Assembly (NCBI GenBank): GCA_035546775.1
Contig: DASZWD010000061.1
Span: 1-64,000 of the forward strand
DNA from: Acidimicrobiales bacterium
Lineage (GTDB): Bacteria; Actinomycetota; Acidimicrobiia; Acidimicrobiales; JACCXE01
Reading direction: 5' to 3'
Length of the DNA: 64,000 nucleotides
Shown here: positions 22,989 through 63,364 of the stretch, piece after piece
How the letters are laid out: the number at the start of each line of letters is the position of its first letter
Position numbering within the stretch: position 1 is the first letter of the stretch
Position numbers and translations under genes: made by a program
Notes under the pieces: model-generated
What the model saw: only the letters and a program-made list of their open reading frames with translations
Told to the model about the DNA's origin: nothing
Database searches by the model: none

Positions 22989-22994
22989 TAACCT
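22989..22994 (+). promoter_or_regulatory. putative -10 hexamer TAACCT of ugd
   Basis: TAACCT ends six bases before ATG 23001 in the 20-base gap after rfbD. The hexamer and spacing are identical to those before the ATA codon at 62654. Confidence 0.55.
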
Positions 22995-23000
22995 TGGCGG

Positions 23001-24272
23001 ATGGCTGACATTGCAGTAATCGGCACCGGCTACGTCGGGCTGACGACGGGTGCGTATCTCGCGCACCTCGGGCACAACGTCGTGTGTGCCGACGTCGTGC
23101 CAGAGAAGGTCGAGGCGCTCAACCGCGGCGAAGTGCCGATTCACGAAGCCGGACTCGACGAGATGGTCGAGCAGGGGATTGAAGCCGGCCGCCTGAAGTT
23201 CGTGCTCGGTGCCGTCACCGCCGCGGCCGAGGCCGAGTTCATCTTCCTGTGCCTGCCCACCCCGCAGGGCGAAGACGGCTCCGCCGACCTGTCCTACGTG
23301 GAAGCCGTCGCGCGTGACATCGGCCCCCACATCCGACCGGAGAGCATCGTGGTCAACAAGTCGACGGTGCCGGTCGGGTCGAACCTGCGCGTGGCCGCGC
23401 TGCTCAACCGCGACGACGTGTTCGTCGTGTCGAATCCCGAGTTCCTGCGCGAGGGCCAGGCGCTGCAGGACTCGCTGAACCCCGACCGCATCGTCATCGG
23501 CGCCAATGACCAGGAAGCCGCACTGCGTCTCGCCGAGTTGTACGAGTCGCTGCACGCGCCGGTGCTCGTGACCGATCCGGCGTCGGCCGAGACGATCAAG
23601 TACGCCGCCAACGCGTTTCTCGCCACCAAGGTGTCCTTCATCAACGCCGTCGCCCACTTCTGCGAGCTCGTCGGCGCCGACATCAAAGACGTGGCGCTCG
23701 GCATGGGCCAGGACAAGCGCATCGGCTTCGAGTTCCTCCGCCCGGGCCCCGGATGGGGCGGTAGTTGTTTTCCGAAGGATTCGCGGGCGCTGATTCACAT
23801 GGCGGAGGACCGTGGGTACGGGTTCGACCTGCTGCGCAGCGTCGTGGCGGTGAACGACGAGCAGTACGAGCGCGTGGCCGACAAGATCGCGTTCGCCGCC
23901 GGTGGTTCGCTCGAAGGCAAGACGATCGCCGTGTGGGGGCTGACGTTCAAGGCGCGCACCGACGACACGCGTGAGTCGCCGGCGCTGTTCATCATCGAGC
24001 GGCTGCTGGCGCGCGGCGCCAAGGTGCAGGCGTTCGACCCGATGGCGAGTCGGCAGTTCGACGAGTTCGCCGTGTGCGACGACGCCTACGCCGCAGTCGA
24101 AGGTGCGGCGGCGCTGGCCGTGCTGACGGAGTGGGAGGAGTTCCGCTTCGTCGACCTGACGAAGGTGCGCAGCCTGATGGTGGGCACCAACATCGTCGAC
24201 GCCCGCAACCTGCTCGACCCGGCCGCGGTGCGCCGCCACGGGTTCACCTACGACGGCATCGGGCGGCTGTAG
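23001..24272 (+). CDS. ugd: UDP-glucose 6-dehydrogenase
   Basis: This enzyme oxidises UDP-glucose twice to UDP-glucuronate using NAD. The 423-residue protein begins with ADIAVIGTGYVGLTTGAYLAH. It has LPTPQGEDGSADLSYVEAVA, the hinge motif ETIKYAANAFLATKVSFINA and the catalytic cysteine in GPGWGGSCFPKD near residue 260. WGLTFKARTDDTRESPA is near 312. The next gene probably decarboxylates its product, so the pair would supply UDP-xylose and leave UDP-glucuronate available. Confidence 0.95.
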   Translation: MADIAVIGTGYVGLTTGAYLAHLGHNVVCADVVPEKVEALNRGEVPIHEAGLDEMVEQGIEAGRLKFVLGAVTAAAEAEFIFLCLPTPQGEDGSADLSYVEAVARDIGPHIRPESIVVNKSTVPVGSNLRVAALLNRDDVFVVSNPEFLREGQALQDSLNPDRIVIGANDQEAALRLAELYESLHAPVLVTDPASAETIKYAANAFLATKVSFINAVAHFCELVGADIKDVALGMGQDKRIGFEFLRPGPGWGGSCFPKDSRALIHMAEDRGYGFDLLRSVVAVNDEQYERVADKIAFAAGGSLEGKTIAVWGLTFKARTDDTRESPALFIIERLLARGAKVQAFDPMASRQFDEFAVCDDAYAAVEGAAALAVLTEWEEFRFVDLTKVRSLMVGTNIVDARNLLDPAAVRRHGFTYDGIGRL

Positions 24273-62409: not shown

Positions 62410-62415
62410 TACGTT
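62410..62415 (+). promoter_or_regulatory. putative -10 hexamer TACGTT of the DUF3499 gene
   Basis: TACGTT ends seven bases before ATG 62423, with no Shine-Dalgarno sequence. A TTG at 62393 in the same frame lies upstream of it and is rejected. Confidence 0.5.
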
Positions 62416-62422
62416 GGACCAC

Positions 62423-62644
62423 ATGTCGCGTACTCCCCGTTGCGCCCGGCCCGGCTGTGGCGCGTCCGCCGACGCCACACTTAGTTACGACTATGCCAGC
62501 CGCACGGTTTGGCTCGACCCCGTCGATCGCGGGGTCGAAGGTGGCTGGTTCCTTTGCCCGACGCACGCGTCCAACGTCCGTGCCCCTGTCGGCTGGGCCG
62601 TCGACGACCGCCGCGCTTCGAACATTCGCCGGCTGGCTGTTTAA
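62423..62644 (+). CDS. DUF3499 family small protein
   Basis: The 73-residue protein contains SRTPRCARPGCGASADATLS, YDYASRTVWLDP and WFLCPTHASNVRAPVGW. This Cys-x4-Cys ... Cys-x2-His arrangement is the mark of DUF3499, a small family found almost only in actinomycetes. It probably binds zinc through these residues; the function is unknown. ATG 62423 is supported by the hexamer at 62410. Its stop TAA is also the start of a -10-like hexamer for the next gene. Confidence 0.85.
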   Translation: MSRTPRCARPGCGASADATLSYDYASRTVWLDPVDRGVEGGWFLCPTHASNVRAPVGWAVDDRRASNIRRLAV

Positions 62645-62647
62645 CCT
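62642..62647 (+). promoter_or_regulatory. putative -10 hexamer TAACCT on the DUF3499 stop codon, before an ATA start
   Basis: The stop TAA (62642-62644) is the first half of TAACCT. The hexamer ends six bases before the ATA codon at 62654. The same hexamer with the same spacing precedes ugd at 22989. Confidence 0.5.
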
Positions 62648-62653
62648 TTTCGC

Positions 62654-63364
62654 ATAGAAACCCCGACCGTCACTGTCGAGCGCGCGCCGCGCTCGGAGAT
62701 CCGCCTCTACGACGTCGTCGCCGTCTTCTTCTTCTCGATCGTCACCGGCAGCATCGGGATCGGGATCGGCAACTCGATCGGGGGGACGGGGTCGTACGCC
62801 GAGACGATCGGCAGCCTTGTGGGCCTGTGGTTCGGCCTGATCCCCGGCGCCATCCTCGTGTGCCGGCTGCGTGGGACGGGCAGCCTGGTCAAGGACCTCG
62901 GGCTCACCTTCCGCTTCCCGGCTGACCTCATCGGGATCCCGGCGGGGCTGGCGTCGCAGTTCGTCCTGCTGCCGCTGATCTACGTCGTCGTGCAGCTCTT
63001 CGTGAGCCACGACCTCACCAAGGATCTCCAGAAGCCGGCGCAAGATCTCACCGACAACGCCCACGGCACCGGCTTCTGGCTCCTGGCCGTGCTCCTGGTC
63101 GTCGGCGCGCCGCTCGTGGAAGAGATCTTCTACCGCGGCATGTTGCTGCGGTCGCTGAAGCGCTCGCTACCGCCCTGGCCCGCGATCGTCACGTGCGGCG
63201 TCGTGTTCGGCGCCGCCCACTTCGACCTGGTGACCTTGCCCGGGCTCGCGGCGTTCGGCATCGTGCTCGCTTGGCTCTCCCACCGCTCCGACCGCCTCGG
63301 GCCGAACATCCTCGCCCACGCCGCGTTCAACGCGGCCACCGTCGTGGCGCTGTGGCATGGCTGA
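62654..63364 (+). CDS. CPBP family intramembrane metalloprotease, apparent ATA start
   Basis: The conserved part has the CPBP (Abi/CaaX protease-like) motifs APLVEEIFYRGMLLRSL (the EExxxR site), VVFGAAHFDLVT and ILAHAAFNAATVV, with several membrane helices. CPBP proteases cut prenylated or membrane substrates; the target here is unknown. The only canonical start, GTG 62819, would remove a complete N-terminal helix (VVAVFFFSIVTGSIGIGIG). The open frame continues back to the DUF3499 stop. It contains no ATG, GTG, TTG or CTG but has ATA at 62654, six bases after TAACCT, giving 236 residues that begin (I/M)ETPTVTVERAPRSE. I annotate that start, but GTG 62819 (181 residues) remains possible. Confidence 0.75.
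   Translation: METPTVTVERAPRSEIRLYDVVAVFFFSIVTGSIGIGIGNSIGGTGSYAETIGSLVGLWFGLIPGAILVCRLRGTGSLVKDLGLTFRFPADLIGIPAGLASQFVLLPLIYVVVQLFVSHDLTKDLQKPAQDLTDNAHGTGFWLLAVLLVVGAPLVEEIFYRGMLLRSLKRSLPPWPAIVTCGVVFGAAHFDLVTLPGLAAFGIVLAWLSHRSDRLGPNILAHAAFNAATVVALWHG

Follow-up and report, generated by a model that had tools for sequence, protein, structure and literature searches.

A 64,000-nt window from the genome of an Acidimicrobiales bacterium (GCA_035546775.1, contig DASZWD010000061.1, positions 1–64,000, forward strand) contains a gene for a CPBP (Rce1-like) glutamic intramembrane protease that probably starts with an ATA codon at the 5′ end of a leaderless mRNA, as a member of a small class of genes in which an ATH codon (H being A, C, or T) stands exactly six bases (N6) behind a TANNNT hexamer and canonical start codons are missing. 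The recurrence of this start-less TANNNT-N6-ATH layout is the main result and extends beyond the single CPBP case; the sequence data make a leaderless AUH class as a whole quite likely, and this class is better supported than the membership of the CPBP gene in it. We also lean, slightly, toward the proposal that in this order 5′-terminal AUC and AUA, the third base being free, act as regular, selected start signals on strictly leaderless mRNAs by escaping the proofreading exerted by initiation factor 3 (IF3).

The start region of the CPBP gene and its comparators in the window are as follows:

62423–62644, + strand: DUF3499 gene, the upstream neighbour (PF12005, E = 8e-13)
62642–62647, + strand: TAACCT, proposed −10 hexamer of the CPBP gene (TANNNT at N6–N10 is strongly enriched before the ATG/GTG starts of this genome)
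62648–62653, + strand: six-base spacer TTTCGC (N6 is the sole spacing found for ATH starts)
62654–62656, + strand: ATA, proposed leaderless start codon (enrichment of the class; sole ATN between the stop and the PRSEIRL block besides ATC 62699)
62654–63364, + strand: CPBP (Rce1-like) glutamic intramembrane protease, 236 codons from ATA to TGA 63362–63364 (PF02517, translation)
62819–62821, + strand: GTG, first canonical in-frame start triplet, rejected as the start (sister codon CTC; preceding 44 codons under purifying selection)
22989–23003, + strand: start of ugd, an ordinary leaderless comparator seen in the sequence (TAACCT 22989–22994, N6, ATG 23001)

The CPBP frame (62645–63361) is open from the DUF3499 stop (TAA, 62642–62644) to its TGA, and a codon-by-codon check of 62645–62818 found no NTG among the 58 codons, the first being GTG 62819, which agrees with what a first-pass annotation of the window had described. 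Its in-frame ATN codons are ATA 62654, ATC 62699, ATC 62738, and further ones later. The TAA of the DUF3499 stop forms the first three bases of the TAACCT hexamer, and the same hexamer at the same distance precedes ATA 62654 and ATG 23001 of ugd, a parallel that the annotation had drawn and that the sequence confirms at both sites. With this six-base spacer, transcription would begin at the A of ATA 62654, and no GGAG-like Shine-Dalgarno stretch was seen by eye before 62654. The DUF3499 gene is itself probably leaderless, as suggested by TACGTT (62410–62415) at N7 before ATG 62423 and by TACGCT-N6-ATG in the sister species.

The protein is an ordinary member of the CPBP/Rce1-like proteases (PF02517; E = 1.6e-20, 73.6 bits against a gathering cut-off of 22.4), and only its start is unusual; the NCBIfam models for CPBP match it as well, every one below its cut-off. 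The active site of glutamic CPBP/Rce1-like proteases is defined by the motifs EExxxR, FxxxH, and HxxxN, all three of which are present in the translation (EEIFYRG, FGAAHFD, and HAAFNA).

The N-terminus was compared with that of the sister species (G001), the one further genome that the genus offers; searches of the genus and family yielded no further close relative. The sister orthologue sits likewise behind DUF3499 and is 73% identical. Across the 44 codons from PRSEIRL to GTG 62819, dN was 0.25 and dS 1.25 (dN/dS ~0.20), and across the remainder of the gene dN was 0.17 and dS 0.81 (dN/dS ~0.21); both parts, before and after GTG 62819, are under the same purifying selection. Translation from GTG 62819, which would give a truncated protein lacking the first helix and which the annotation had entertained as a weakly used start, would employ the first canonical in-frame triplet, but the sister codon at this position is CTC and the preceding codons are conserved, by which this start is ruled out and retains next to no probability. 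The start must therefore lie upstream of ~62699, where the only ATN codons are ATA 62654 and ATC 62699. A fusion of DUF3499 and CPBP by readthrough of the TAA would suit the frame that the two genes share in both the window and the sister genome; we regard it as highly improbable, since most orthologues possess NTG starts within the CPBP frame itself and readthrough does not predict ATH at N6. The adjacency of DUF3499 and CPBP is kept across many families of the order, and a CPBP relative in Acidimicrobiaceae palsa_688 (L036:2237 onward) has 62 codons without NTG and without a leaderless motif.

Start-less genes were sought in 1.82 Mb of this genome, about half of it, in which 1,602 genes were called by codon composition and ranked by their coding potential upstream of the first ATG, GTG, or TTG. 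As a start-less gene, CPBP ranked first of 418 in the window plus 400 kb and second of 1,602 in the 1.82 Mb, where first place went to an apparently spurious frame of low total score; a PhyH-family gene, rarA/MgsA, and an acyltransferase gene followed shortly after it. The motif had been fixed from the CPBP finding (hexamer, six bases, AT-codon) and was then generalised to TANNNT and ATH, and its enrichment was tested in 2.46 Mb (~2,000 genes) drawn from this genome, the sister, and related genomes, at positions around the onset of coding with no ATG, GTG, or TTG within 20 codons on either side. In these start-less contexts, TANNNT-N6 preceded 7 of 35 ATH codons vs 3 of 2,831 other codons (Fisher p = 2.5e-12; p = 1.4e-10 when CPBP was removed). 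None of the ATH codons there had TANNNT at a spacing of 3–5 or 7–14, none of the GTH, CTH, ACH, or TTH codons had it at N6, and TA...T was the most frequent hexamer class at N6 before ATH. Among all ATH codons near gene starts the enrichment of TANNNT-N6 was mild (9/1,127 vs ~2.4 per 1,000), two of the nine being ATT-GTG starts; the decisive evidence comes from the start-less context alone.

Besides CPBP, the class comprises six loci:

PhyH-family gene, this genome: TAGCAT-N6-ATC
rarA/MgsA, this genome: TAGGTT-N6-ATC
acyltransferase gene, this genome: TAACCT-N6-ATC
transmembrane protein gene, this genome (C2:16693), overlapping the end of the upstream gene: TACCGT-N6-ATC
rarA of the sister species (L210, 87% identity): TACGGT-N6-ATC
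Pyridox_ox_2 gene of a member of another family (G023): TACGAT-N6-ATC

Pfam domains set in at residue 29 after the ATC in PhyH, 31 in rarA (RuvB_N; 64 for AAA), and 19 in the acyltransferase, and the first NTG falls within the domain in PhyH and the acyltransferase. The Pyridox_ox_2 domain runs from residue 23, with no NTG before ~codon 41. In the rarA gene of this genome the first NTG comes 20 codons in, directly ahead of the PLADRLRP block, and most orthologues start farther upstream; in the sister rarA, NTG codons are absent over the interval from 21 codons upstream until codon 31. Judged from these frames, translation must begin ahead of the first NTG in PhyH, the acyltransferase, Pyridox_ox_2, and, by its orthologues, rarA. 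The two rarA ATC codons are unaligned in the DNA alignment and their distances to the conserved block differ by three codons; the two species have a common architecture and not an aligned base. In other families rarA begins with ATG or GTG behind TAGGGT, TAGCGT, TACCCT, and similar boxes at N6–N8, and the orthologues of Pyridox_ox_2 in other families are often leaderless (TANNNT-N6/7 before ATG/GTG), with TACGGT-N6-ATG at the equivalent position in one of them (G014). No close sister orthologue with a comparable start was found for the PhyH, acyltransferase, and C2 genes.

Two loci, L036 and L230, have no NTG near their start and were left out of the class count, the N6 motif being absent from them too. 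The latter is the rarA gene of G008 (reverse strand), in which NTG codons are missing over the stretch between 49 codons before and 17 codons after the conserved start and GTA stands behind AAGGGAG at the place of GTG in orthologues.

Recurrence is also what bears on whether the ATA could be a start lost by recent substitution, or an error of the draft consensus, in a decaying or poorly expressed gene. In the sister, the CPBP region contains an ATG (MTVPHPTTETVPEDEPRSDIRL) and, ten codons on, a GTG; the assembly of the present genome is a draft in 75 contigs; and a lineage-specific AUA start is known at citZ of Staphylococcus aureus, with ~10% of AUG expression (PMC13009471). A plain substitution of ATG by ATA would be plausible on these grounds, but the alignment of orthologues that the annotation had called for, while it did recover an ATG in the region, gave no gap-free pairing with ATA: the stretch from the stop to the conserved block is ~75 bases longer in the sister, so that the pairing needs gaps, and the annotation's view of an ATG simply changed to ATA is no more than plausible. 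The frame and active-site motifs are moreover intact and under purifying selection, and six more start-less loci, among them rarA of both species and one gene of another family, share the exact layout, which errors would not produce. A one-off mutation or error is thus unlikely, and of the three options that the annotation had left standing a real leaderless AUA start is the best supported.

Several points weigh against that start. Neither CPBP start in the sister has a TANNNT at leaderless distance, so that conservation lends no support to the CPBP case itself; CPBP alone of the seven class loci has ATA, the remaining six having ATC; and leaderless translation is reported to require AUG in Escherichia coli (PMC4611024) and AUG or GUG in mycobacteria (PMC9094748). 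In addition, the TAR of the hexamer closes an upstream gene or frame in CPBP, PhyH, and the acyltransferase, by which ribosomes ending DUF3499 might re-initiate at the AUA nine bases past the stop, in the same frame, with no separate promoter, and re-initiation is known from E. coli (cf. PMC2268962). The TAR is likewise an upstream stop in 13 of 102 ordinary N6 starts. In rarA of both species and in the G023 gene, by contrast, no upstream gene ends at the hexamer and the layout is identical, so re-initiation cannot account for the class, nor would it require TANNNT at exactly N6; we consider it improbable at CPBP.

A leaderless AUA start would accord with the frequency of ordinary leaderless starts in this genome, of which the 1.82 Mb holds 64 ATG and 38 GTG sites at N6. 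TANNNT precedes ordinary ATG and GTG starts at N6–N10, with N6 the commonest spacing, while ATH starts occur only at N6; AUH starts would thus be confined to the spacing that leaves no leader. We propose that the CPBP gene would be transcribed from a TAACCT −10 element overlapping the DUF3499 stop, with the mRNA starting at the A of ATA 62654, and that the 5′-terminal AUA would be decoded by the usual initiator tRNA (anticodon CAU) despite a mismatch at the third position. Leaderless mRNAs are loaded by 70S ribosomes and antagonised by IF3 (PMC9031893, PMC4611024), and start codons without a third-position G are discriminated against by IF3 (PMC4611024); on the 70S ribosomes that would load these mRNAs, the third-base proofreading of IF3 may not act. 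Since transcripts preferentially begin with a purine, UUG and CUG would drop out, and the usable codons would be AUG, GUG, and AUH.

A pattern search of this genome with the anticodon left free matched two initiator tRNAs, both with CAU, so that a special tRNA is neither needed nor seen; a GAU- or UAU-anticodon initiator tRNA, which was considered as a candidate, was rejected on the result of this pattern search. One of them (G000:C60:128939, L268) has the anticodon stem AGG/CCU and not GGG/CCC, the canonical copy being at C67:933 (L265), and its relaxed features might bear on start selection. The infC gene (G000:C60 ~108106, L098) begins with ATC nine bases after AAGGAG, with no earlier in-frame NTG, an arrangement suggesting that at infC the ribosomes of this organism take AUC as a start codon downstream of a Shine-Dalgarno sequence.

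Leaderless mRNAs are known from other Actinomycetota (Mycobacterium tuberculosis, M. smegmatis, and Streptomyces) and are common in this genome, but the known ones start with AUG or GUG (PMC9094748, PMC9031893), whereas those proposed here start with AUC or AUA. Non-AUG codons on leaderless mRNAs are described as poor or dead in E. coli, and GUG as good in mycobacteria and Streptomyces (PMC9031893). Starts with AUH are known at infC and at ccpN, cvfC1, and citZ of S. aureus, with AUA at ccpN and citZ, and the S. aureus AUA starts, behind strong Shine-Dalgarno sequences, reach ~10–30% of AUG (PMC13009471); these genes are leadered with a strong Shine-Dalgarno, while the class described here lacks one and has a −10 hexamer at leaderless distance. 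Caulobacter crescentus similarly combines rare non-NUG starts with richness in leaderless mRNAs, near-cognate starts making up 0.25% of its coding sequences and one GTC having been verified by mass spectrometry, but the text consulted links these starts neither to leaderless transcripts nor to a single class of codons (PMC4117421). Across 61,358 ancestral AUG starts in 36 genome groups, the available portion of another survey lists one switch to AUU and none to AUA or AUC (PMC5622118). Our literature search, confined to open-access papers with subscription titles lying outside it, turned up no description of leaderless bacterial mRNAs that start at AUC or AUA.

Leaderless initiation is taken to demand a 5′ AUG (AUG or GUG in mycobacteria), and which feature the ribosome recognises on such mRNAs is unsettled; a natural set of AUC and AUA leaderless genes at the exact leaderless spacing would make the idea of an IF3 bypass directly testable. 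If such starts are real, gene callers restricted to NUG would systematically misplace, truncate, or miss a few leaderless genes per genome, five such genes having been found in about half of this one.

A separate non-AUG case was encountered on the minus strand of G000:C30 (~168588), where an MBL-fold-like gene beginning KVSFHGVRGSCPCP has CTG as its only start, behind GGGGGGA.
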